From Tistrella mobilis KA081020-065 (GTDB taxonomy: Bacteria; Pseudomonadota; Alphaproteobacteria; Tistrellales; Tistrellaceae): DNA of 64,000 bases. The position numbers and the translations under genes were made by a program. The notes below the pieces were generated by a model. It was not told where the DNA came from, did no database searches, and worked only from the letters and a program-made list of their open reading frames with translations. Positions 1 to 16,513 of the stretch are shown piece by piece. Position 1 is the first letter of the stretch; each line of letters opens with the position of its first letter. The DNA is taken from positions 62,001 to 126,000 of the forward strand of contig NC_017966.1 in NCBI RefSeq assembly GCF_000264455.2, in the 5' to 3' direction.

Positions 1-932
1 CCATCCTGTCCGGCCTGCTGCACGACGCACCCGACCGCCATGCCGCCCTGGCCGCGGCGGCAGACGTGCCGGGGCTGATCGAGCGGCGCGGCGTGCTCTA
101 CGTCTACCCCGACCGTGCCGCCTTTGCGGCCGAAGCCCTGTCCTGGCGGCTGCGGCGTACGGCCGGTGTGGTCTGGCGGGAGCTGGACGCGGCGGATCTG
201 CAGGCCTTCGAACCCGCCTTGTCCCCCGCCTACCGCTTCGGTATCCACGTGCCGGCAGCGGCGAATTGCGCCGATCCGGGGGCCTATGTCGCGGCCCTGG
301 CGGCTCATGGTGAACGTCTCGGCGTCCGCCGGGTCACCGCACAGGCCACCGGCTTCACCTTCGAGGGTATGAAACTGCGGGCGGTCGAGACCGATCAGGG
401 GCCGATCGCCTGCAACCGGGTGGTGGTGGCGGCGGGCATGGCCTCGGCACGGCTTGCCGCCGCGGCGGGGGACCGTGTTCCGCTGGAGGCCGAGCGCGGC
501 TATCACGTCCAGCTGACCGGCGGTGCCCCGGGCGGGCCGCATCTGCCGGTGATGCCGAGCGACGGCAAGATGGCGAATATCGTCACGCGCGAGGGGCTGC
601 GCGCGGCGGGGCAGGTGGAACTGGCGGGGCCCGGTGCGCCGCCGGACTGGCGCCGGGCGGAGATCCTGCTGCGCCATCTCTACGCCACCTGGCCGGGGCT
701 TTCCCGCGATCTGCCGGTGCGCCGCTGGATGGGCAACCGCCCTTCCACCCCCGACGGGCTGCCGGTGATTTCGGCCGCCCGCCGCAGCCCCGATGTCTTC
801 TACGCCTTCGGCCATGGCCATGTCGGCCTGGCCGCCGGCCCCAAAAGCGCGGCGCTGGTCGCCGCCCTGGTCACCGGATCCACGCCACCCCTGTCGCCCG
901 CGCCGTTCGCTGCGACGCGCTTCCGGTGGTGA
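1..932 (+). CDS. FAD-dependent amino-acid oxidoreductase (DadA/DAO family), 5'-truncated
   Basis: The frame is open from base 3 to the stop at 932, so the N-terminal part, including the GxGxxG FAD-binding motif, lies outside the window. The visible C-terminal part has the DAO-family features: the stretch VVVAAGMAS near base 420 (second FAD contact), a substrate-domain ending in WMGNRPSTPDGLPVI, and the FYAFGHGHVGL segment of D-amino-acid dehydrogenase-like enzymes. It resembles the FAD enzyme at 36035-37276 in the same positions. Such proteins oxidise amino acids or imino acids and pass electrons to the respiratory chain. The following ThDP enzyme starts 39 bases downstream on the same strand, so the two are probably co-transcribed. 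The substrate cannot be read from this fragment. Confidence 0.85.
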   Translation, partial: ILSGLLHDAPDRHAALAAAADVPGLIERRGVLYVYPDRAAFAAEALSWRLRRTAGVVWRELDAADLQAFEPALSPAYRFGIHVPAAANCADPGAYVAALAAHGERLGVRRVTAQATGFTFEGMKLRAVETDQGPIACNRVVVAAGMASARLAAAAGDRVPLEAERGYHVQLTGGAPGGPHLPVMPSDGKMANIVTREGLRAAGQVELAGPGAPPDWRRAEILLRHLYATWPGLSRDLPVRRWMGNRPSTPDGLPVISAARRSPDVFYAFGHGHVGLAAGPKSAALVAALVTGSTPPLSPAPFAATRFRW

Positions 933-3688: not shown

Positions 3689-4126
3689 TCAGAACCCGGC
3701 CGGGCCGGGTATCGGTGCACCGACCGGTGCCACCACCAGCCGGCCGATGCCGTCGGCCGCCAGCGTGAAGCGCAGCAGAATGACCACCGGGTCGGGCAGG
3801 CCGGTCGGGTCGAAATCGCCCGCCACCGCCACCCTGACCGCAACCTCCGCCCCGGCTTCCTGCCAGTCGATCGGGGTGAAGCGCAGGCGGATGGCGAAGA
3901 TCTCGTGCGCCGCCCAGGCGCCGATCGACGGCCGGCCATGGATCAGCCGGTCGCCCCGGACCACCTCGGCGCCTTCGGTGAACAGCTGGCGGAAACTGTC
4001 GAAATCATCCTCGTTCACGGCCTCGATCCAGTCGAGGACAAGGGGCGTCGCCAGGTTGGACAGGCGGGACATCAGCGGTGCATCGGGCATGACGGTCGGT
4101 CCGGGCAGCGATCGGTTTCGTGGCAT
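3689..4126 (-). CDS. NTF2/SnoaL-like small protein
   Basis: The recognisable part starts with SNLATPLVLDWIEAVNEDD and continues with a cone-shaped alpha+beta pattern typical of NTF2-like (SnoaL/ketosteroid isomerase fold) proteins. No catalytic residue set identifies a reaction. The start is uncertain: candidates are 4180, 4126, 4090 and 4072, and none has its own ribosome-binding site. I chose 4126 because it lies two bases after the stop of a very well initiated eight-codon ORF and could be translated by re-initiation, giving 145 residues. The LysR gene follows after 16 bases. The function is unknown; homologues act as isomerases, hydratases or ligand-binding subunits. Confidence 0.65.
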   Translation of the reverse strand: MPRNRSLPGPTVMPDAPLMSRLSNLATPLVLDWIEAVNEDDFDSFRQLFTEGAEVVRGDRLIHGRPSIGAWAAHEIFAIRLRFTPIDWQEAGAEVAVRVAVAGDFDPTGLPDPVVILLRFTLAADGIGRLVVAPVGAPIPGPAGF

Positions 4127-4128
4127 GG

Positions 4129-4191
4129 TCACATCTGATGGACGTGGACGGACATGATGCCGGTCACCTCCTGACGACATTCCGTCAGGAG
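4129..4191 (-). promoter_or_regulatory. Leader with SD-containing hairpin and 8-codon upstream ORF
   Basis: On the minus strand a nine-base perfect inverted repeat (4183-4191 and 4168-4176, six-base loop) is followed by the Shine-Dalgarno sequence AGGAGGTGA (4172-4164), which shares five bases with the 3' arm. Eight bases later an ATG (4155) opens an eight-codon ORF, MSVHVHQM, whose TGA (4131-4129) is two bases before the ATG of the NTF2-like gene. If the hairpin forms, the best ribosome-binding site is masked. This looks like a translational switch with re-initiation. The sequence facts are direct; the function is inference. Confidence 0.5.
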
Positions 4192-4327
4192 CCGGACAAA
4201 AACCGCGATCCGCCCCGCATGATGCAGCGATGATCGGGCCGGCGGCGCTCAGGTGATTGGCTGTTTCCCCCCAGCCGGTAAGCCTGCGCCTGCGTGGGTG
4301 ATCACGTCAAGACCGGTCTTCGATGTT

Positions 4328-7656: not shown

Positions 7657-7841
7657 CGGGGGCGCTCCGGGGCAGGCGTGCGGGATGGGGCTGGCACTCT
7701 AGCAGGGGGCGGGGTGGGGGGCTATGGGCAGAGCGGGGGTGGTGGGATGGGGGGACAGGGAACGCGTGGCCGGCTCTGATCCGCCCTTCCGTATCTGCCG
7801 CCGCCGGACCTCGTGCGCAACAGCCGGTCAGTCATCTGCAT

Positions 7842-7854
7842 GTTGCGCTGCAAC
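7842..7854. promoter_or_regulatory. Small inverted repeat in the MATE / RND divergent promoter region
   Basis: GTTGC-GCT-GCAAC is a perfect inverted repeat about 77 bases before the RND adaptor start, in a 274-base divergent spacer without a gene. It could be an operator for the pump genes, but repeats this short occur by chance. Nothing else recognisable was found in this spacer. Confidence 0.25.
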
Positions 7855-7930
7855 GTTTCGTAACACGACAAAACATGGGGAAAGTCAGGCGGCTGCTATT
7901 TTATGACCGATTGAAGCAACAGGTTGGGTC

Positions 7931-9175
7931 ATGGCCAGGAAATCCCGCTCAGGAAAGGTCTCTCTGCGCCTGATGGCTCTTCTGGTGTCGGTCATACCGT
8001 CTCCCTGCATAGTCATTGCGGCCGCAGGGGCGCAGGAGATGATGTCGGTCTCTGTCGTCGTTGCGAGAGAAGGCCTGCTCACGGACCAGATCTCCATCGT
8101 CGGAACGCTGGTGCCGCGAGAGGAGGTGGAAGTTCATCCTCTCGTCTCGGGCCAGCCGATCACGCGAATTCTTGCGGAGACAGGGCAGTACGTTGAAGAA
8201 GGGCAGGCGCTGGCCATGCTCGATACCACCGATGCGCAGATGCTGCTCGACAAGAACGCCGTCGGCACCCTGCGGGCAGAAGCCGCTGTCGCCGTCGCGC
8301 GCAGCCGGGTGGATGTGGCGCTGGTTGCCGAAGCAGAAAGCAGACGAAGGCTGGAGCGTAGTCGTGCCCTGCAACCCAAGGGTGCCGTGTCCCTGCAGCT
8401 TCTGGATGAACATCAGAATGCTCATGCTCGGGCGGTCGCGGAGCTTGCTCTGGAGCGTCAGTCGCTCGCACTTGCCGAAGCCGAGGCGGACCTCGTGATC
8501 CATGAGCGCCGGGAAATAGAACTCAGGATCCAGCGTGGCACGCTCATAGCCCCGACGGCGGGGGTGATCCTCGACCGCAGGGCCCGACTCGGCGCCCTGG
8601 CGTCGGATGCAGGTGATGCTCTTTTCTCGATTGCGGAGAACGGTCTGGTGGAGGTCGTCGCACAGGTCGTGGAAACGGATTTTGTCCGGCTTCGCGACGG
8701 AATGCATGCCGAGATCAATCTGCCGGGACGGAGCGATCCGGCGACGGGCACGCTCAGGATGAAAGCTGCGCAGATGGATCCGGTGACCCGCAGTGGCGAG
8801 GTGCGGATCCGACTGGATGAGAATGATCGCGTCACGCCGGGCATCTTTGCGCGCGGCCACATAAAAATCGCCGAAAGACGCGGCATTCTGCTGCCGGGCA
8901 CGGCGGTCAGAAGCCGCAGCGGTGAGGATATGGTCTATGTGGTGGCGAACGGGGTCGTGGATGTCCGCCCGGTGATGGTCGGGCTCCGGCGGGACGGGTT
9001 GGTGGAAATCACCGGCGGCCTGTCCGCGGGCGAAATGGTGGCTCTGAAGGCCGGCGGCTTCCTGAAGGATCGGGAGAAGGTTCACCCCGTGATTGCCGGC
9101 ACGGATGCTGCGCCGAAAGACGAGCTGGCCGTATCACCCCCGACGGACGATGCACGGGGGCGCATGCGCGAATGA
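7931..9175 (+). CDS. RND efflux periplasmic adaptor (HlyD/MFP family)
   Basis: This 414-residue protein starts with a signal sequence (MARKSRSGKVSLRLMALLVSV...) and then shows the adaptor plan: a first lipoyl half (VEVHPLVSGQPITRILAETGQYVEEGQAL), an alpha-helical hairpin of about residues 105-180 rich in Ala, Glu and Arg, a second lipoyl half (RGTLIAPTAGVILDRRARLGA), then beta-barrel and membrane-proximal domains. It would bridge the inner-membrane pump to an outer-membrane channel. Its stop overlaps the pump start (ATGA), so the two are translationally coupled. No outer-membrane factor or regulator gene lies beside the pair, so a TolC-type channel must come from elsewhere. Confidence 0.93.
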   Translation: MARKSRSGKVSLRLMALLVSVIPSPCIVIAAAGAQEMMSVSVVVAREGLLTDQISIVGTLVPREEVEVHPLVSGQPITRILAETGQYVEEGQALAMLDTTDAQMLLDKNAVGTLRAEAAVAVARSRVDVALVAEAESRRRLERSRALQPKGAVSLQLLDEHQNAHARAVAELALERQSLALAEAEADLVIHERREIELRIQRGTLIAPTAGVILDRRARLGALASDAGDALFSIAENGLVEVVAQVVETDFVRLRDGMHAEINLPGRSDPATGTLRMKAAQMDPVTRSGEVRIRLDENDRVTPGIFARGHIKIAERRGILLPGTAVRSRSGEDMVYVVANGVVDVRPVMVGLRRDGLVEITGGLSAGEMVALKAGGFLKDREKVHPVIAGTDAAPKDELAVSPPTDDARGRMRE

Positions 9176-12100
9176 ATACAAATATCTCCGCATGGGCCAT
9201 ACGCACGCCGCTGCCGTCCATTCTGCTGTTCGTGGTTCTGACCATCATCGGGCTCTACAGCTTTGTACGCCTGCCGATCACGTATTTTCCAACGGTCATC
9301 ACGCCGTCGGTCCGCGTCACCATTGAACAGGCAGGTGCATCTCCCGCAGAACTTGAAATCCAGGTGACGCGGCTTGTGGAAAACGCCATAGCCTCGCTGC
9401 CAGCGATCCGACGGCTGGATTCCATGATCGATCAGGGGCGTTCCGTGACGACCGTGGAATTCGAACTGGGTCTGGTGACGCCGGACCGTGCCGTGGACGA
9501 TGTGCGGGACGCGGTCTCCAGGATCAGGAGCGACCTGCCGGCCATGGCAGATGAGCCCTTGATCGAAAGGCTGGAAGAGGATTCCACATCCCTCGTCACC
9601 TATGCAGTCCTGAACCCCGATATGACGGTGACGGAACTGTCCTGGTTCATCGATGACACCGTGACCCGCGCTCTTCAGGGTCTTCCGGGTGTCGGGCGTA
9701 TCGAGCGTGTCGGCGGTGCCGATCGCGAAATACATGTTGAACTGGATGTGGAGCGGTTGCAGGCCCTGTCGCTCACCGCCGGAACGGTCAACGACATGCT
9801 GCTGCAGACGCAGCTTGAACGTTCGGGCGGCCGTAGTGAGGTGAACGGCAACGAGGAGGTCGTGACCACGGCTGCCGCGGCCGAAACGATCACCGAACTG
9901 GCCGGGCGGCGTCTGGCGCTCGATGGTGAAAGCTCGGTCCGGCTTTCAGACATTGCACGGGTCCGCGATGCGAATGCCGAGCCCCGGGCCTTCGCCATGC
10001 TCGACGGTTCCGAGATCGCAGGCTTTTCCGTCTATCGCTCGGGCGGAGCGGGCGAAGTGGCCGTCGCTACCGCTGTCGCGGGCGCGCTTGAGGAGATCAG
10101 GACCGCTTATCCGGACCTGCAGTTCCGCCTGGTCGACGACAATGTGTCCTATACCGTCGGCAACTACCATGCGGCCATGAGCAGCCTGTTCGAGGGGGCG
10201 GCCCTGTCGGTCATCGTGGTGTTTCTGTTCCTGCGTGACTGGCGGGCAACCATCGTCGCGGCCGTGGCCCTGCCACTTTCGATCATCCCGACGTTCTTTG
10301 TGATCGGGCAGCTCGGGTTCTCGCTGAACATTCTCAGCATGCTTGCGATCACGCTGGTGACCGGCATCCTGGTCGATGACGCCATCGTCGAGATCGAGAA
10401 TGTCGTGCGCCATCGCAACATGGGCAAGTCGGCCCGCCGTGCCGCGCTGGATGCCTCCGACGAGATAGGGCTCGCCGTCATCGCGATATCGGCGACGATC
10501 ATCGCGGTATTTGCGCCGGTCGGGCTCATGAGCGGCGAGGTCGGGCTCTATTTCCGTGAATTCGGGCTGACCGTCGCCATTGCCGTCTTCTTCTCGCTGC
10601 TCGTCTCACGGCTGATCGTGCCCGTACTGGCGGCGTATTTCATGACCGCGGGGCCCCCGAAGGATGAGGAAAACGGGCGGCTGATGCGGTCTTACGAATA
10701 CCTGCTGAAGATGAGCCTCAGGCACCCCCTGCTGACCGTCGGCACGGCTCTGGGGCTGTTCGCGATCGCGATCGTGTCGTTGGCGTCGCTGCCCACCGCC
10801 TTTCTGCCCGAAGAAGACATGGGGCGACTGACGCTTACGGTCGAACTGCCGCCGGGCGCCACCCTCGACGACACCCGGGCGGCAACCGATGACATTGCGG
10901 ACCGCCTTCGCGGTTTCGAAGAGGTTCGGGGCGTTTTCGTCCGCGCCGGGGCGAGCATGACCGGGCAGGAGGATGTGCGTCACGCGATCGTGCTGATCAA
11001 TCTCGTTCACAAATCGCAGCGCGAGAGGTCATTGTCGGCGATCGAGGCCGATCTGGAAAGAATGCTGGCAGCGTTTCCGGATCTGCGTCTGCGCTTCCTC
11101 AACAATCGGGGCAGTCGTGACGTTTCCTTTGCGCTGCTGGGCAGCGACGGCGATGCCGTTCAGGCGGCGGCGAATGCCGTCCTGCGTGAGATGTCGGCCG
11201 ATGGCGACTTCGTCGACCCGTCCAGCGACAACATCGCCATGCGCCCGGAATTGCGGGTGATCGTCGACACCGACAGGGCCGCGATGCTCGGCGTGTCGCC
11301 GGCGATGATCGCCGAGACCATCCGCGTGTCCACCATCGGCGAGGTCGACAGCAGGCTGGCGGATTTTCTCGACGGGTCCAGAAAGATCCCGATCCGGGTC
11401 ATCATCGATCCGGTTTTCCGGGGGAATCTGCCGGCCTTGCAGTTGTTGACCCTTCCGGCAGCCGGCGGCGGTCAGGTCCCGTTGTCGGCGGTGGCCGGGA
11501 TCCGTTTCGACGAAACGGCTGCCGTGATCAATCGCATGGACCGTCTGCGTCAGATCGAGATGGGAACGGACATGGCCGCAGGCATGACCTCGGGGCAGGG
11601 TCTCGAAAAGCTGATGACGCTCGACAGCGTCCGCAACCTCCCCGATGGCATACACATACGGACAACGGGCGATTCCGACAGCGAGGGCGATGTCTTTGAA
11701 AGCTTCGTGCCCGCCATGGGCGCGGGGATCCTGCTGGTCCTGATCGTCCTGATTCTGCTGTTCGGCAGCGTGCTTGCGCCGTGGACGATCCTTGCGTCGC
11801 TGCCTCTCTCGATTGCCGGGGTCACCCTCGGGCTTGTGCTGGGCGGGCATGCCGTGTCCCTGCCGGTCGTCATCGGCATTCTGATGCTGATGGGCATCGT
11901 GACGAAGAACGCGATCATGCTGGTTGATTTCGCCATCGAACGCGAGGCGCAGGGGCTTGGCCGGATGGAGGCCATCGTCGAGGCGTGCTCCAGCCGCATC
12001 CGCCCGATCGTCATGACCACGCTGGCCATGGTCGGCGGCATGATCCCGTCGGCGATCGGCATTGGCGACGGCGGCGAGTTCCGGGCCCCGATGGCCATCG

Positions 12101-12234
12101 CCGTCATCGGTGGGCTTCTGGTGTCCACCCTTCTGTCCCTGATCGTGATCCCGTCGCTGCACCTGATCATGTCGACTCTGGGTGACCGCCTGACCTGGAT
12201 TTTCCGGCGGGTTTTTCAGTCGGCCGGGGGCTAG
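9172..12234 (+). CDS. RND efflux pump, inner-membrane permease (AcrB/MexF superfamily)
   Basis: At 1020 residues this is a full-length RND pump with twelve transmembrane helices and two large periplasmic loops. The N-terminus SAWAIRTPLPSILLFVVLTIIGLYSFVRLPITYFP is typical of helix 1. Helix 4 has the proton-relay residues in GILVDDAIVEIENV (adjacent Asp pair), and the second half has MGIVTKNAIMLVDFA. It exports drugs, solvents or other amphiphiles using the proton gradient, as a trimer with the adaptor encoded just upstream. Start ATG 9172 overlaps the adaptor stop. The substrate is not predictable. Confidence 0.95.
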   Translation: MNTNISAWAIRTPLPSILLFVVLTIIGLYSFVRLPITYFPTVITPSVRVTIEQAGASPAELEIQVTRLVENAIASLPAIRRLDSMIDQGRSVTTVEFELGLVTPDRAVDDVRDAVSRIRSDLPAMADEPLIERLEEDSTSLVTYAVLNPDMTVTELSWFIDDTVTRALQGLPGVGRIERVGGADREIHVELDVERLQALSLTAGTVNDMLLQTQLERSGGRSEVNGNEEVVTTAAAAETITELAGRRLALDGESSVRLSDIARVRDANAEPRAFAMLDGSEIAGFSVYRSGGAGEVAVATAVAGALEEIRTAYPDLQFRLVDDNVSYTVGNYHAAMSSLFEGAALSVIVVFLFLRDWRATIVAAVALPLSIIPTFFVIGQLGFSLNILSMLAITLVTGILVDDAIVEIENVVRHRNMGKSARRAALDASDEIGLAVIAISATIIAVFAPVGLMSGEVGLYFREFGLTVAIAVFFSLLVSRLIVPVLAAYFMTAGPPKDEENGRLMRSYEYLLKMSLRHPLLTVGTALGLFAIAIVSLASLPTAFLPEEDMGRLTLTVELPPGATLDDTRAATDDIADRLRGFEEVRGVFVRAGASMTGQEDVRHAIVLINLVHKSQRERSLSAIEADLERMLAAFPDLRLRFLNNRGSRDVSFALLGSDGDAVQAAANAVLREMSADGDFVDPSSDNIAMRPELRVIVDTDRAAMLGVSPAMIAETIRVSTIGEVDSRLADFLDGSRKIPIRVIIDPVFRGNLPALQLLTLPAAGGGQVPLSAVAGIRFDETAAVINRMDRLRQIEMGTDMAAGMTSGQGLEKLMTLDSVRNLPDGIHIRTTGDSDSEGDVFESFVPAMGAGILLVLIVLILLFGSVLAPWTILASLPLSIAGVTLGLVLGGHAVSLPVVIGILMLMGIVTKNAIMLVDFAIEREAQGLGRMEAIVEACSSRIRPIVMTTLAMVGGMIPSAIGIGDGGEFRAPMAIAVIGGLLVSTLLSLIVIPSLHLIMSTLGDRLTWIFRRVFQSAGG

Positions 12235-12242
12235 AGCCTGCG

Positions 12243-12596
12243 TCAGGCAGGCTCGTTGGTGTGGCCGGTTTCCCCTGACACCCACTTCTCCATCACCACC
12301 CGCGGCACCGCCTGATACCCCACCTTTTCATAAAACGCCTTCACCGCCGTATTCGTCTCGCGGATCATCAGCAGCACCTTGCGCACGCCGTGGCGGCGCA
12401 GCCAGTCTTCGCCGGCGGTGACGATGTCGGTGCCGAGGCCCTGCTGGCGGCAGGTCGGGTCGACGGCGACGTAATAGAGCCAGCCGCGGTGGCCGTCATG
12501 GCCGGCCATGACCGAGGCGACCAGCCGGCCGTCGAGCCGGCCCGCCAGCACCTCGGAATGGGAGCGGCCGCGCGCGAAGGCGATGTCGTCCAGCGG
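12243..12596 (-). pseudogene. 5'-truncated duplicate of the GNAT acetyltransferase gene
   Basis: This fragment encodes the C-terminal two-thirds of a GNAT acetyltransferase, including the acetyl-CoA loop RQQGLGTD and the ending AFYEKVGYQAVPRVVMEKW. It is a near copy of the intact gene at 16055-16513, aligned without gaps from 12287 to 12596, then the homology stops abruptly where an IS481 remnant begins. The N-terminal part is missing, and the C-terminus was changed to a different tail (VSGETGHTNEPA). An internal ATG at 12551 leaves 102 residues open, but without the first strands of the fold it is unlikely to work. Confidence 0.85.
12287..12596. repeat. 310-bp direct repeat, copy 1
   Basis: Pairs with 16066-16375 at a constant offset of 3779 bases without gaps. 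The copies differ at scattered positions (for example GCCTGATACC versus GCGTTATACC), so the duplication is not recent. The repeat bounds the AT-rich island and its IS remnants. Confidence 0.9.
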
Positions 12597-12601
12597 TACG
12601 A

Positions 12602-13075
12602 CTGATCAAGGCTGGCATCCGGGTGGAGCGGATCGAGCCCGGTAAGCCGCAACAGAACGGGCGACATGAGCGGATGCATCTGACGCTTCAGGAAGAAACG
12701 GCCTCGCCGCCGGCCCGGAGCCTGAAGGAGCAGATGCAGCGGTTCCGGGACTTCCGCCAGAGCTTCAACCACGAGCGCCCGCATGAAGCGCTGGATTATG
12801 AGGTACCCGCCGCGCGCTACCAGCCCTCGCCACGGCGTTTTGACGGCCGGCTGCGATCGCCGGACTATCCGCATGACGCCGAGATCCGGAGAGTGCGCAG
12901 GACCGGAGAGATCAAATGGCGAAACCGAAACCTGTTTCTGACCGAGGTGCTCTCAGGCGAGCCGGTCGGGCTGTTCCTGATCGGCCCCGAGACCTGGCTG
13001 GTGAAATACGGGCCTGTTGCGCTGGGCTCGATCAGGGGGAAAGCGGGCTTTGAAAAGTTTGGTGCGGGATCGTGA
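12602..13075 (+). pseudogene. IS481-family transposase, C-terminal fragment
   Basis: The frame reads LIKAGIRVERIEPGKPQQNGRHERMH..., the integrase-core segment that carries the third catalytic acidic residue (the Glu in NGRHERMH), followed by the FNHERPHEALDYEVPA motif and the C-terminal domain common to IS481-type transposases. The first two catalytic Asp residues and the DNA-binding domain are absent, because the frame is cut at about 12597 by the junction with the GNAT fragment. It cannot transpose on its own. The 3' end of the coding frame at 13075 and the flanking terminal repeat are intact. Confidence 0.85.
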
Positions 13076-13105
13076 TCCCGCACCAAACCAAGGCCGGAAC
13101 CGGGG

Positions 13106-13131
13106 TGAGCTGTTACCTATGTCGCCGGTCT
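13106..13131. repeat. Terminal inverted repeat of IS481 remnant A
   Basis: TGAGCTGTTACCTATGTCGC continues into CGGTCT and agrees with 16006-16031 at 21 of 26 bases. It marks the element's right boundary; DNA to the right of 13131 is not IS sequence. Confidence 0.75.
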
Positions 13132-13314
13132 GAAGTGTTACCCGTCTTTCCGGTTGCTCAGGGCCGCAGCATGATTTGAGATCCGTGCGTATCGGGGCAA
13201 AACCGGCGCCAGATGACCGGTTATCTGCGCGCCAAGCCAACACGCTATCTTCCCTTCTGGGCGGGCGAGACATCACCCCTCAGGATCTGAAGTCGAAACA
13301 AAAGCCTCCGAAGG

Positions 13315-13354
13315 TTGACGAGGTGTCTTCTAACTGCTAATGATTCTCATTATC
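13315..13354 (+). promoter_or_regulatory. Promoter with Fur box for the AT-rich island operon
   Basis: GCTAATGATTCTCATTATC (13336-13354) matches the classical 19-bp Fur box at 16 of 19 positions and contains the perfect inverted repeat TAATGA-TTC-TCATTA. A possible -35 (TTGACG, 13315) with an 18-base spacer puts a -10-like AATGAT at 13339-13344 inside the box, so a bound Fur protein would block RNA polymerase. The first gene begins 45 bases downstream. The motif is read directly; iron repression is inferred from it. Between the IS end at 13131 and this promoter (about 180 bases) I see nothing else. Confidence 0.75.
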
Positions 13355-13369
13355 AAAATGGAGCGGAGA

Positions 13370-13402
13370 ATGTCTGATAACCATCTGGAGCAAAGCGGAT
13401 GA
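13370..13402 (+). CDS. 10-codon leader ORF overlapping the next start
   Basis: ATG 13370 is preceded by GGAGCGGAGA, a good ribosome-binding site, and encodes MSDNHLEQSG. Its TGA overlaps the ATG of the 72-residue gene (ATGA at 13399-13402). The overlap and the strong initiation site suggest that it sets translation of the operon by coupling. No amino-acid run suggests classical attenuation. It may also be chance. Confidence 0.35.
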   Translation: MSDNHLEQSG

Positions 13403-13617
13403 AACCCGGCACAGCCGAGGCGGCACTGCGCGTCTGCATGATCGGGCTCCCCGCCACCTGCGCCGTTTTCGGCGGCAGCATCATCCTTGACCATCTGGCT
13501 GATCTTGGCAGGCCCGAATGGCAGCAGGCGCTCGTCTCCATCACTGCAGGGGCTGTAATCGGTGGAGTCGTGGGATTCCTATTGGTGATTGTGAAGAAAT
13601 TTATGATCAAGGACTAA
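13399..13617 (+). CDS. Small two-helix membrane protein of unknown function
   Basis: The 72-residue product has two hydrophobic segments, about residues 10-32 and 43-64, separated by a short polar loop, and a basic tail (VKKFMIKD). This gives a holin-like topology with both ends probably cytoplasmic. GGAG lies eight bases before the ATG. It is the first substantial gene after the Fur box and ends five bases before the barrel gene, so it belongs to the same operon. I do not recognise a family. Its base composition is closer to the chromosome than that of the next three genes, so the junction of foreign DNA may lie within or after it. Confidence 0.6.
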   Translation: MKPGTAEAALRVCMIGLPATCAVFGGSIILDHLADLGRPEWQQALVSITAGAVIGGVVGFLLVIVKKFMIKD

Positions 13618-13621
13618 TCGT

Positions 13622-14551
13622 ATGATCACCAGAGATTATGGGCTGCATCGACTTCATATTTGTATGGCATTATTATTGGCGGCGATATTCATATCAATTT
13701 CCAATTCATCTGAAGCCTCGCAAATTTCGAAGAACTCGGCAAAAGAGAATAGGAATATTGTTGAAATAGAAGATTTTTTGCCGGGTACGGGAGATGTCAC
13801 AGTCTCAATAGGGGCAGATTTTTCTTATTTGAACCAGGACTCGAACACGTTCGCATTCGGGCTTGCGCCACAAGGTAACGTGATAACACTCGTCCCCTTC
13901 TCAGTTCCGTCAAATCGCCAGACTTATTCGTTTTCCGCCGCAGCAGCAGTGACCTATGGAATCACCGAAAGATTATCACTCGGGGCACGCATACGAGGAA
14001 CGGCCGAGTTTACTGAGATCCAGACAGGCGGCCACTACACAAAAAGAGACGATAAATATGAAATATCTGACATTTCCCTAACTGGAAATTACAAAATTAC
14101 ACCCATCACAGAGAGTCCTTATTATTATATATTTGGAGAATATCGATTTCTGGAAATGGAAGATGATGTATCTATCGGTCACTCTTATGCCTTTGGCGCA
14201 GGCATCGGATGGCTGGAAGATCCTATTCTCATTTCTCTGGGACTCGCCTTCTCCTCGGTGGATGTCCGAGATCCAGAATCTTCTCTGAATTTCTCTGGGC
14301 GGTACATGATGGCATTTCCAGCAATAGCCTTCTCTGTCAACGAAAAGATCAATCTGACGTCCGGTGTGAGCCTTGGGTACATGCTCGACGACATGCCACA
14401 CGGCGCAGGAGGATCATCGTTTAGCAGCGCCATGGCCTTCGGGCTCTCCTACCGCATGAGCCGCCAGACGGCGTTGAATCTCAACACCCGTTTTGGCTTG
14501 GCGGATAACGAGAGTGTCGGCATGCATGGCACGTGGATTTATAGGTTCTGA
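13622..14551 (+). CDS. Outer-membrane beta-barrel protein, transporter-like
   Basis: This 309-residue protein has a signal peptide (hydrophobic stretch MALLLAAIFISISNSS, cleavage probable near residue 33), then alternating amphipathic strands rich in aromatic and Gly/Ser residues, and it ends in TWIYRF. A terminal Phe with aromatic residues at alternating positions is the outer-membrane insertion signal of beta-barrels. Repeated turns such as NEKINLTSGVSLGYMLDDM and RQTALNLNTRFGLADNE resemble the porin-like 'MetA-pathway' and FapF-type barrels, but I cannot assign a family with certainty. It is clearly more AT-rich than the surrounding chromosome. Together with the C39 peptidase downstream it may export the glycine-zipper protein encoded next. 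Confidence 0.7.
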   Translation: MITRDYGLHRLHICMALLLAAIFISISNSSEASQISKNSAKENRNIVEIEDFLPGTGDVTVSIGADFSYLNQDSNTFAFGLAPQGNVITLVPFSVPSNRQTYSFSAAAAVTYGITERLSLGARIRGTAEFTEIQTGGHYTKRDDKYEISDISLTGNYKITPITESPYYYIFGEYRFLEMEDDVSIGHSYAFGAGIGWLEDPILISLGLAFSSVDVRDPESSLNFSGRYMMAFPAIAFSVNEKINLTSGVSLGYMLDDMPHGAGGSSFSSAMAFGLSYRMSRQTALNLNTRFGLADNESVGMHGTWIYRF

Positions 14552-14563
14552 AAGGAGAATAGC

Positions 14564-15004
14564 ATGAGGAAGCTACGGGCAATCTCTGGAATAGTGGTCC
14601 TGTTGTCGATCATGATCCACCCGGCATTTGCGTTGGAACAAGATCAGTCAGCAAAAATATTTGGACCGAAACACCGAGAACTCTACACTCGCGAATTAAC
14701 AGAAGAAGAGCGTAAAAACATAACAGGAGCGATCCACCCAGTCATTATAGCGGTCGGGTGGGCCGCGGGCGCCGGAGGGGCAAGCATCGTCTATCAGTAT
14801 GCCGCCAATGGTCAGGTCGACTGGTGGGAAGTAGCCACCAACGCTACGGGGGCCTTCGTCGGAGCACTTACCGGCGGAGCCCTGACTCCGTATATCGGAC
14901 AAGTCGGCTCCGCCGTAGTAGGCGGAGCAGCAGGAATGATATCTTATTATGGAATGAATAATCATATGAACATCGGTTCTGTGTGCTCCACATGCCACCA
15001 GTGA
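14564..15004 (+). CDS. Secreted glycine-zipper protein ending in CxxCH
   Basis: The 146-residue product has a Sec signal (residues 1-23, cleavage after HPAFA), a charged helix (REL-TRELTEEERKN, residues 38-52), then two hydrophobic glycine-zipper segments: G65xxxG69, and G96xxxG100xxxG104 ... G120xxxG124. Such patterns occur in membrane-inserting peptides, class IIb bacteriocin-like proteins and amyloid-type fibre subunits. The last six residues, CSTCHQ, contain C141-S-T-C144-H145, the canonical haem c attachment motif. The ribosome-binding site AAAGGAG is seven bases before the ATG. It lies between a barrel and an exported C39 peptidase in an operon with a Fur box. It is probably the exported substrate of this system. 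The family is not recognised. Confidence 0.65.
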   Translation: MRKLRAISGIVVLLSIMIHPAFALEQDQSAKIFGPKHRELYTRELTEEERKNITGAIHPVIIAVGWAAGAGGASIVYQYAANGQVDWWEVATNATGAFVGALTGGALTPYIGQVGSAVVGGAAGMISYYGMNNHMNIGSVCSTCHQ

Positions 15005-15015
15005 TTGCGGACGAG

Positions 15016-15606
15016 ATGATCAGATATTACGCTTTATCGGTTCTGGTATTTTCTGTGCCCACAGATGTTTTGGCACAGGAAGCCACATTTCCATTTTTTC
15101 CGGGAGAGGTGATCAAGCCATTCAATATTCAGAAGTATAACAAAATAACGACACAAGTATTTGATAGCTCCTGCGGGGCAGCTTCGGTTGCAAACATAAT
15201 CAGCGAATACTACAGGATACCGACAAATGAACTGGTAATTCTAGCAAACATGAATATACATGGGGATAGATCCGAGTATTCATTTGAAGATCTAAGATAT
15301 GGGGTTGAATTTCACAATCTAACGCCCGTATACGTCGCGACTAATTATGAGGCACTTCTGGAGCTCAAGATTCCAGTGATCGCACATCTACGATTGCTTG
15401 ACGGTAATCACTTTTCTGTAATAAGAGCTGTCACTGAAAATTACATATTTTTAGCTGATCCCGCCTGGGGGAATGTAAAATTGACGCGCACACAATTCGA
15501 AGAGAAATGGTTGAGTGATACAAATGAAGGTCATATCATGGCTATAATTTCTGAAAACAACATAAACACTTCTGATGAATATTTCGGTCTAAAAAAATAT
15601 CGATAA
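15016..15606 (+). CDS. Exported C39-like cysteine peptidase (FapD-like), not fused to an ABC transporter
   Basis: This 196-residue protein has a short signal peptide (MIRYYALSVLVFSVPTDVLA) and a complete C39 active site: oxyanion Gln47 and nucleophile Cys53 in QVFDSSCGAAS, catalytic His in GNHFSVIRA, and Asp in LADPAWG. C39 domains usually sit on ABC exporters and cut double-glycine leaders in the cytoplasm. Stand-alone periplasmic forms are known from functional-amyloid (FapD) systems. I placed the start at ATG 15016, 12 bases after the previous stop, because this gives a proper signal peptide; ATG 14983 would overlap the upstream gene and add 11 polar residues. Its likely partner is the glycine-zipper protein immediately upstream. 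Strong AT bias supports horizontal origin. Confidence 0.75.
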   Translation: MIRYYALSVLVFSVPTDVLAQEATFPFFPGEVIKPFNIQKYNKITTQVFDSSCGAASVANIISEYYRIPTNELVILANMNIHGDRSEYSFEDLRYGVEFHNLTPVYVATNYEALLELKIPVIAHLRLLDGNHFSVIRAVTENYIFLADPAWGNVKLTRTQFEEKWLSDTNEGHIMAIISENNINTSDEYFGLKKYR

Positions 15607-15645: not shown

Positions 15646-15839
15646 GGGTATGTATTTATTAATACAAAATCAGCTTATTGGTAGTATTCTGAATATCTTT
15701 ATAGATATTATATTGTGAATCAATCCGTTCAAAATTGCTCGTGAGCTAGAAATTCATGCGTAATTTCTTCCATCATGTTCTATTCTATATTCCGCAAACT
15801 GTCGTGCACATTCTAAATATAATCATGCCCGACTCACTC

Positions 15840-15955
15840 CTGCATCGAGAAGCATGTCTTCGATGGCGCAACTCCGAGATGTTGTCACCGCCTTCAAGGC
15901 ACGCCGACACGAAACACAACCTCTCATCCATCACACAGGTCTCTTGCCACGCCAT
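15840..15955 (-). pseudogene. IS481-family transposase, N-terminal fragment
   Basis: From ATG 15955 the frame reads MAWQETCVMDERLCFVSACL and then EGGDNISEL, the usual IS481 transposase N-terminus just before its helix-turn-helix. After SELRHRRH the sequence no longer matches the expected CRRFGISRKTGYKW helix, and the frame runs on into unrelated AT-rich DNA. It is the counterpart of the C-terminal fragment at 12602-13075, but in the opposite orientation. Confidence 0.7.
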
Positions 15956-16005
15956 GGTCGCACCTCCGCGACCATCTTGCACACCTGTCACCCATGTCAG
16001 CGGGC

Positions 16006-16054: not shown

Positions 16055-16513
16055 TCACAACCACCTCTCCATCACCACCCGCGGCACCGCGTTATACCCC
16101 ACCTTTTCATAAAACGCCTTCACCGCCGTATTCGTCTCGCGGATCATCAGCAGTACCTTGCGCACGCCGTGGCGGCGCAGCCAGTCTTCGCCGGCGGTGA
16201 CGATGTCGGTGCCGAGGCCCTGCTGGCGGCAGGTCGGGTCGACGGCGACGTAATAGAGCCAGCCGCGGTGGCCGTCATGGCCGGCCATGACCGAGGCGAC
16301 CGGCCGGCCGTCCAGCCGCCCGACCAGCACCTCGGAATGCGAACGGCCGCGGGCGAAGGCGATGTCGTCCAGCGGGTCGTTATAGGGCATCACCAGATTG
16401 CAGGCCTGCCACAGCGCCACCAGCGCCGGCAGTTCGGCATCGTGGACGGGGCCCACCGTCAGGCGGGGCCGGTCGGGCCGGTCGTCGGGATCGGTGGCAT
16501 CGGTGCTGTCCAT
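16055..16513 (-). CDS. GNAT-family N-acetyltransferase (YpeA-like)
   Basis: A 152-residue cytosolic acetyltransferase. The GNAT fold is complete: the strand/helix start LTVGPVHDAELPALVALWQAC, the acetyl-CoA loop with the R/QxxGxG/A pattern in CRQQGLGTD, and the C-terminal FYEKVGY motif. ATG 16513 is chosen because AAAGGA stands nine bases upstream; the open frame extends further to 16720 but without a ribosome-binding site. It is the parent of the truncated copy at 12243-12596. The start region contains an unusual Asp/Pro/Arg-rich tract (DSTDATDPDDRPDRPR). The substrate is unknown; YpeA-like proteins have no firmly assigned role. Confidence 0.88.
   Translation of the reverse strand: MDSTDATDPDDRPDRPRLTVGPVHDAELPALVALWQACNLVMPYNDPLDDIAFARGRSHSEVLVGRLDGRPVASVMAGHDGHRGWLYYVAVDPTCRQQGLGTDIVTAGEDWLRRHGVRKVLLMIRETNTAVKAFYEKVGYNAVPRVVMERWL
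16066..16375. repeat. 310-bp direct repeat, copy 2
   Basis: Lies inside the intact GNAT gene and matches 12287-12596. The match ends at CAGCGG (16370-16375), exactly where copy 1 joins IS481 remnant A. Confidence 0.9.

Follow-up and report, generated by a model that had tools for sequence, protein, structure and literature searches.

A 64-kb stretch of the Tistrella mobilis KA081020-065 genome (G000:C3:62001-126000, hereafter the window, within a genome of 6.5 Mb on five contigs) carries a compact, AT-rich array of four genes that encode a 72-aa membrane protein, an outer-membrane barrel, a glycine-rich peptide precursor and a C39 peptidase. From sequence and from analogy with known systems, we propose, with a probability of about 0.72, that the array is a Fur-repressed bacteriocin operon of the microcin type, whose peptide would leave the cell by way of Sec, a C39 peptidase in the periplasm and a FapF-like pore, on the model put forward for the Neisseria nap island (PMC11798529; here and below, papers are cited for the accessible part of their text). 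The elements of the operon are as follows:

13315-13344, plus strand: sigma-70-like promoter TTGACG / AATGAT (9/12 matches), with its -10 element inside the Fur box
13336-13354, plus strand: Fur box GCTAATGATTCTCATTATC, 17/19 matches to the 19-bp consensus
13399-13617, plus strand: gene for the 72-aa protein with two hydrophobic segments, probably an immunity protein
13622-14551, plus strand: gene for the 309-aa outer-membrane barrel, with a predicted signal peptide, a candidate FapF-like exporter
14564-15004, plus strand: gene for the putative 146-aa bacteriocin precursor, with predicted signal peptide, leader, glycine-rich hydrophobic core and CSTCH tail
14984-14998, plus strand: CxxCH codons of the precursor (residues 141-145), from a motif comparison over ten loci
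15016-15606, plus strand: gene for the C39 peptidase; the ATG at 15016 is the likelier start, and the listed GTG start at 14983 is also possible

The four open reading frames (ORFs) occupy 13399-15606 with gaps of 4, 12 and 11 nt, in agreement with a preliminary description of this DNA that had reported four tightly spaced genes. The array had also been singled out there as AT-rich, and the GC content of 13315-15606 is indeed 47.0%, compared with 65.4% over the whole window (58, 47, 53 and 40% for the genes in order). The protein classes named for the second and fourth genes hold as well. The barrel protein carries a predicted signal peptide and gave a weak Pfam barrel match (Phenol_MetA_deg, 25 bits; cut-off 22). 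Its AlphaFold2 model, built from four sequences, is mostly beta and of low confidence (pLDDT 47.8, pTM 0.50); compared with the PDB, it matches FapF chains in all of the top 16 places (E 9.8e-10 to 4.5e-7, query TM 0.54-0.60), with autotransporter barrels and the COG4313 channel next. This low-confidence model suggests that the barrel is a FapF-like exporter. The fourth protein is a C39 peptidase (Pfam, 62 bits) whose best NCBIfam relatives are FapD and FilB, both far below cut-off (for FapD, 55.4 bits against 330), and the Fap-like export logic seen in the preliminary description is supported by these matches. Q58, C64, H143 and D159 (numbered from the GTG) are invariant in seven aligned C39 sequences; we take the Cys, His and Asp to be the active-site residues and the Gln to be the one that precedes the Cys. 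The N-terminus contains a hydrophobic stretch that we read as a signal peptide, and the enzyme should therefore act outside the cytoplasm. It is 33.5% identical to the gonococcal C39 peptidase over residues 35-201.

Is this gene set found elsewhere? Barrel, peptide, small membrane-protein and C39 genes occur together in nine other loci, making ten operons of one architecture, so the co-occurrence on which the preliminary description had hung its case is there. The nine, each with the full gene set, are three E. coli plasmids (L002, L108 and L109), a Vibrio coralliilyticus plasmid (L007), loci of Winslowiella (L065), Erwinia (L066) and Serratia (L067) from a genome scan with the barrel, and loci in genomes G674 (L092) and G305 (L045) from profile searches. 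The E. coli plasmids measure 5.9-6.6 kb and carry, beside the operon, mobilisation and replication genes and a few hypothetical genes. By tblastn, the window barrel matched two of 72,556 plasmid records (E <=0.01), the E. coli and Vibrio loci, both of which include C39 in the operon and were also matched by the C39 query. That query matched 125 plasmid records, and the 40 of them listed pointed, among others, to an E. coli plasmid, Avibacterium p250, Acinetobacter and Vibrio plasmids and a chromosome-sized gonococcal record; L108 and L109 were reached through the Serratia and G674 barrels. Related-locus searches of genome contigs returned the three loci from Winslowiella, Erwinia and Serratia with the barrel and none with C39; viral contigs searched with the barrel returned none, and C39 tblastn in phages returned only two records, both of the ABC-transporter type by annotation.

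The C39 profile is too broad a marker by itself, matching 91 of 398 genomes of the phylum, many with frames above 600 aa as in ABC transporters. The barrel is rarer. Among 58 relatives it matched two, the window's own genome and a sister genome of the same genus (G001). Its profile matched 4 of 250 genomes in the order of G305, all four with C39 at a distance of 2 kb or less; 13 of 295 in the order of G350, where G674 alone was strong (215 bits, the other 12 at most 32.6 bits); 4 of 147 in the family of G071, all at most 23.7 bits; and 9 of 367 in the window's own class, where its own genome alone exceeded 37 bits. Because it recurs in scattered loci with few matches per genome group, the gene set is real and patchily distributed.

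The third gene encodes the presumed cargo. Its 146-aa product matched no family above cut-off (best match TauE, E 0.0077), and comparison of the precursors recasts what had been described as a secreted glycine-zipper protein as a precursor that has a microcin-like leader and is predicted to be exported by Sec. A signal peptide spans about residues 1-23 and a leader continues to GA at 55-56 (both cleavage sites are predicted); the leader is RELTEEERKNITGA in the window, PLSETELDETTGK in E. coli plasmid pSCU-111-4, LSRQEMKDTQGA in the Acinetobacter peptide and LSQKEMSEVKGGA in the haemocin peptide, a pattern that we take to be that of double-glycine leaders. Leader residues E49 and G55 are invariant in seven sequences, and the aligned precursors share the N-terminal hydrophobic stretch, the leader, a Pro just beyond the putative cleavage site, a core rich in glycine, and the tail. 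The predicted mature mass is 9.0 kDa for the window peptide; the range over 8/10 loci is 7.4-10.5 kDa (below 10 kDa in seven, 10.5 kDa in one), and the other two reach about 16 kDa. The cores have diverged strongly (14-29% identity to the window core), and the L108 and L109 proteins keep leader and tail around a longer middle part that, by eye, does not resemble the others. A structural model of the peptide was of low confidence (pLDDT 53.4) and was used no further than to call it mostly helical; an NCBIfam match to the E492 microcin (E 0.4) and a cytochrome c' match of the peptide profile in the PDB (E 0.56) were discarded as chance.

One conserved and unexpected feature was overlooked in the preliminary description: a C-terminal CxxCH, present in 9/10 loci, window counted, with a CX3CH in the tenth, pSCU-111-4. 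Between 0 and 5 residues follow the motif in nine loci and 29 in one, and each mature peptide has exactly two Cys, both within the motif. L092, L108 and L109 were found through the barrel after the motif had been noted in the first seven loci, and all three carry it. Across 38 loci, only 6 of 1,598 ORFs of at least 60 aa have a CxxCH within 5 residues of the end, and five of these are family peptides (this set is counted without the window, L108 and L109, and L002 and L045 fall outside the narrow pattern). A further group of operons that lack the CxxCH tail (L003-L006 and L089-L091) has the C39 gene and, in most cases, a related barrel that begins LPLTIEDL; the motif occurs in none of the eight peptide ORFs of five of them (L003, L004, L006, L089 and L090, the last with two overlapping ORFs; L005 and L091 lie outside this count). 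Barrel profiles from the ten CxxCH loci and from five other loci align with each other (probability 99.9, E 3e-31). In a tree of barrel plus C39 over 15 loci, a clade with support of 98.9/100 unites eight of the CxxCH loci; the window (78.6/38) and G305 (74/40) are not firmly placed, so the tree does not show a single CxxCH clade. The tail is probably a targeting or cofactor element of the peptide.

Several side observations concern decayed or partial relatives. Six larger E. coli plasmids (L013, L014 and L104-L107) hold decayed remnants of the peptide and small membrane-protein genes, and in five of them a colicin-like gene or fragment is annotated nearby. E. coli pSCU-111-1 (L110), from the same strain as pSCU-111-4, has a partial barrel match at about 4001-4267 (31% of the query, no annotated gene) that is apparently a remnant. 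L093-L095, L054 and L062 belong to another type of locus, in which a stand-alone C39 gene is accompanied, on the other strand, by a barrel frame that is larger (331-361 aa) and weakly FapF-like.

What is the function of the 72-aa protein? It has two hydrophobic segments and no family above cut-off in Pfam and NCBIfam scans. G001 has a complete Fur box and a complete 72-aa gene; there, the barrel similarity stops after 33 codons at an inserted sequence (IS-like by eye), and the peptide and C39 genes are gone. The 72-aa gene differs from that of the window at 2 of 219 nt, both silent, with zero amino-acid changes, against 25 of 340 columns in the remaining aligned stretch (Fisher p = 0.0004). 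Because G001 keeps this gene intact while the barrel, peptide and peptidase genes are broken or lost, we read its product as probably an immunity protein; selection of another kind, or a chance deletion boundary, could also lie behind its survival. Thus, the disruption in a relative that the preliminary description had reckoned against the system does exist, but the gene left intact there is the one that immunity would preserve. Immunity proteins of class II microcins are small membrane proteins, and in all nine other loci the peptide and C39 genes have between them a small ORF that encodes 1-4 hydrophobic segments. At L108 (2063-2790), three such ORFs stand in a row, possibly tandem immunity genes. 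In the window, a ten-codon ORF (MSDNHLEQSG, 13370-13402), also kept in G001, runs into the start codon of the 72-aa gene (ATGA), a possible case of translational coupling.

A Fur box before the four genes had been reported at 16/19; the box is present, but it scores 17/19 against the 19-bp consensus that we assumed. It is the only site with three or fewer mismatches in the window (it matches on both strands), and 100 shuffles of the window gave zero such sites. The 6.5-Mb genome has two further sites with three or fewer mismatches (G000:C3:334143, L128, and G000:C1:3027140, L127; a reversed control pattern gave 0): one precedes fhuF and an extracytoplasmic-function (ECF) sigma gene (FhuF, 140 bits; cut-off 63.85), the other a ZnuA/MntC-type metal binding-protein gene with an adjoining ABC ATPase (by eye). 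Since both precede metal genes, the host seems to employ this type of box at such genes. The box scores 18/19 in G001. With a threshold of at least 14/19 and a Markov p of at most 0.007 (300 simulations), a Fur-like box precedes 7/10 CxxCH operons (window 17, L002 16, L108 18, L109 18, L007 15, L065 14 and L067 18; the L065 box had p 0.020 in a first run on 300 nt). Among the no-tail operons, 1/7 is boxed (Neisseria, weakly, 14/19, p 0.017), and the association of box and tail has a Fisher p of 0.0498 with relatedness ignored. The promoter call is weak by itself, because the region has 9 sigma-70-like sites where shuffles give 5.0 +/- 2.3. Colicin V is under Fur control, and we infer that iron would likewise control this operon through Fur.

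The preliminary description had placed the operon between two IS481 remnants. Both are present, but the left one is not the primary boundary of the island. The flanking features are:

12243-12597, minus strand: partial copy of a GNAT-like gene (300 nt, 96%); the other copy begins at 16055
12623-13075, plus strand: left IS481 transposase fragment, C-terminal part (rve_3 and NCBIfam matches)
about 15785-15991, minus strand: right IS481 transposase remnant, N-terminal part (by eye)

The left fragment matched rve_3 (54.8 bits) and NCBIfam IS481 (55 bits, under the cut-off of 224). The right remnant gave no match of its own in the family scan; by eye, it is the N-terminus of a 390-aa transposase ORF found elsewhere in the same genome, whose C-terminal part is the left fragment. 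The two thus lie on opposite strands, one on either side of the four genes. In G001, the beginning of the island (95% over 559 columns) adjoins the equivalent of window position 7738; the genome lacks 7738-13161, hence also the left IS481 fragment, and the flanks are contiguous there, which is why we do not take that flank as the primary boundary. The operon was probably acquired horizontally. Besides the left IS481 fragment and the partial copy of the GNAT-like gene, the 5.4 kb of 7738-13161 hold what is, by eye, an RND-type pump gene (9172-12234). Part of the presumably GNAT-like acetyltransferase gene, a name we gave by eye, is duplicated on both sides of the island (12243-12597 and 16055-16380), and its left copy is truncated.

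How would the operon work? When iron is scarce, Fur would leave the box and a single transcript would be made. By analogy with the published Fap parts and with what is proposed for nap, the 146-aa precursor would cross the inner membrane by Sec. In the periplasm, the exported C39 peptidase would remove the leader by cleaving behind RELTEEERKNITGA, which would yield a glycine-rich hydrophobic peptide of about 9 kDa. The FapF-like barrel would then release the mature peptide, which may insert into the inner membrane of competitors, while the 72-aa two-helix membrane protein would shield the producer. Export of a membrane-active peptide was among the options of the preliminary description, and it is the one that the evidence favours.

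Several findings weigh against this proposal. The leader ends in GA in the window and in GK, GR or GS in its relatives, never in GG. The window's 72-aa gene precedes the barrel gene, whereas the small membrane-protein gene of the nine relatives, at most a putative homologue of it, adjoins the peptide gene. No qualifying box was found at L066 (12), L045 (10) and L092 (12), that is, at 3/10 loci. The window peptide had no tblastn match in plasmids, and a second genome of the same species (G1043) had no match to the island. Finally, gonococcal nap, the single operon of this kind for which we read of a functional study, is reported to promote autolysis and, in the accessible text, not to inhibit the growth of other bacteria (PMC11798529).

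What does the tail do? The haem- or metal-binding option of the preliminary description is worth keeping because the C-terminal CxxCH is conserved, though now as a tail on a toxin. Cytochrome c maturation (Ccm) system I has been hypothesised to attach haem to any Sec-delivered CxxCH, and it gave high haem occupancy at 4/5 engineered CxxCH sites (PMC6962350); an exposed, Sec-exported CxxCH in a system I host might therefore be haemylated by default. It is conceivable, if doubtful, that the product is a haem-tagged Trojan-horse microcin: the precursor would pause in the periplasm, cytochrome c maturation would load haem on the CxxCH, C39 would trim the leader, the FapF-like pore would release the peptide, and iron-starved rivals would import it through haem receptors, with Fur timing production to the rivals' synthesis of those receptors. 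CcmE was present in 7/7 genomes examined, namely G001 and six that carry the complete operon (the hosts of the four plasmid loci lie outside this tally), and ResB in 1/7; CcmE is, however, common anyway (77 of 99 genomes in the order of G350), which weakens this support. The idea is further weakened by the absence of a cytochrome domain from the window peptide and seven family peptides scanned, by the CX3CH variant, by the three box-less loci and by the no-tail operons with the same export parts, and it would require a pore able to let haem through. With the exception of the box-less loci and the pore, these observations favour instead a disulfide or metal site without haem, serving folding or recognition by exporter or target, to which we give an even chance within the bacteriocin proposal. 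Class IIa microcins can hold disulfides (PMC10233263, PMC9746304); against a metal site, one CxxCH offers zinc just three ligands.

We considered four explanations other than a bacteriocin. The IS remnants around the operon, its breakage in G001, its absence from G1043 and the relics in six larger E. coli plasmids would fit a decaying, non-working relic, but four open frames and intact catalytic residues make this unlikely. Self-lysis peptides for programmed death, like the Neisseria Naps, would share the export logic and the AT-rich island of nap (PMC11798529); we find this rather improbable in view of the strong Fur box, the larger and different peptide and the lack of any 60-260 aa ORF ending in CxxCH in the gonococcal stretch, a search in which the Nap peptides themselves were not inspected one by one. 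If the secreted protein were instead a haem-c carrier or haem scavenger serving the producer, Fur-like boxes and a CxxCH would be expected, as found, but none of the four genes codes for a TonB receptor or for haem uptake. Moreover, every locus has a small membrane protein, 3/10 loci sit on 6-kb mobilisable plasmids and the peptide cores are strongly diverged, all of which make a carrier very improbable. We give least credence to Fap-like functional amyloid secretion. A FapF-like barrel and a FapD-related C39 peptidase (55 bits) would suit it, and aggregation, known from Cdz proteins (PMC5380434), is conceivable for a glycine-rich hydrophobic peptide. However, the C39 protein does not come near the 330 bits required for FapD, the family scans showed no Fap subunit, the leader is conserved and microcin-like, relatives have a separate small membrane protein, and the immunity-like gene alone is retained in G001; the fibre once suggested as cargo is thus not supported.

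The bacteriocin proposal places the operon among several known systems. The preliminary description had held that an iron-controlled version of this export logic would be new, yet the Neisseria nap island already combines a C39 peptidase (NapP), a FapF homologue (NapF), GG-leader peptides (NapABC) and NapI, and NapP and NapF are proposed to process and export the peptides (PMC11798529). The trio of exported C39 peptidase, FapF-like pore and leader peptide is complete in the window, with C39 and peptide export predicted, and the resemblance extends to small peptides, an immunity-like gene and an AT-rich island. In contrast, Naps are 16-36 aa long, cationic and, in the accessible part of PMC11798529, without antibacterial activity; the gonococcal barrel frame is short in the record used (180 aa), and the best gonococcal box scores 14/19 (p 0.017). 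The haemocin operon of Avibacterium p250, for which the papers covered gave nothing useful, likewise has by annotation a C39 peptidase, a structural protein (with a predicted signal peptide and an EMSEVKGGA leader) and an immunity gene. HmcD occupies the place of the barrel; its homology is unproven because the aligned identity is 20% and no barrel profile matched at E <=1. Unlike the window's four genes, haemocin has an extra AAA ATPase, and it has no Fur box and no CxxCH.

In Pseudomonas, FapD is a periplasmic C39 enzyme required for secretion and FapF is the pore (PMC5557850). The barrel fold and the Sec-exported C39 peptidase are alike, whereas Fap exports amyloid subunits; the periplasmic coiled coil of FapF (PMC5557850) may be a further difference, and we rejected membership of the Fap amyloids because the FapD cut-off was not reached and no FapB/C/E subunit family appeared in the scans. 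The class II microcins V and E492 are also peptides of about 9 kDa with a similar leader (PMC10233263, PMC9746304). They leave the cell by a peptidase-containing ABC transporter and a membrane-fusion protein, none of which is among the four genes, and classic membership was rejected on the missing ABC exporter. Caulobacter Cdz pairs a glycine-zipper bacteriocin with an inner-membrane immunity protein, but it uses type I secretion, two proteins and stationary-phase induction (PMC5380434). No type I secretion genes are among the four, and we keep Cdz, like the class II microcins, as a system that works similarly and not as the family of this operon. Pectocin M2 is a colicin M-like protein with a ferredoxin domain. 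It is a bacteriocin that parasitises nutrient (iron) uptake (PMC4671253), with neither haem nor a small peptide involved.

One export logic thus links scattered operons: nap, Fap and perhaps haemocin. To these the present loci add a branch, spread over several genera and 6-kb E. coli plasmids, with a conserved CxxCH tail and mostly a Fur-like box. The logic itself is known, and the tailed, mostly Fur-boxed branch appears undescribed: judged by titles and the openings of abstracts, with subscription papers and preprints mostly outside the coverage, we found no CxxCH-tailed bacteriocin or haem-tagged microcin in the literature. If the tail carries haem, these peptides would be haem-baited weapons with a new uptake route for antibacterial peptides, and haem tagging would give a reason for a periplasmic route over a one-step ABC exporter. 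Class IIb microcins bear a siderophore at their C-terminus (PMC10233263), and a haem-tagged microcin, if true, would be their haem counterpart.

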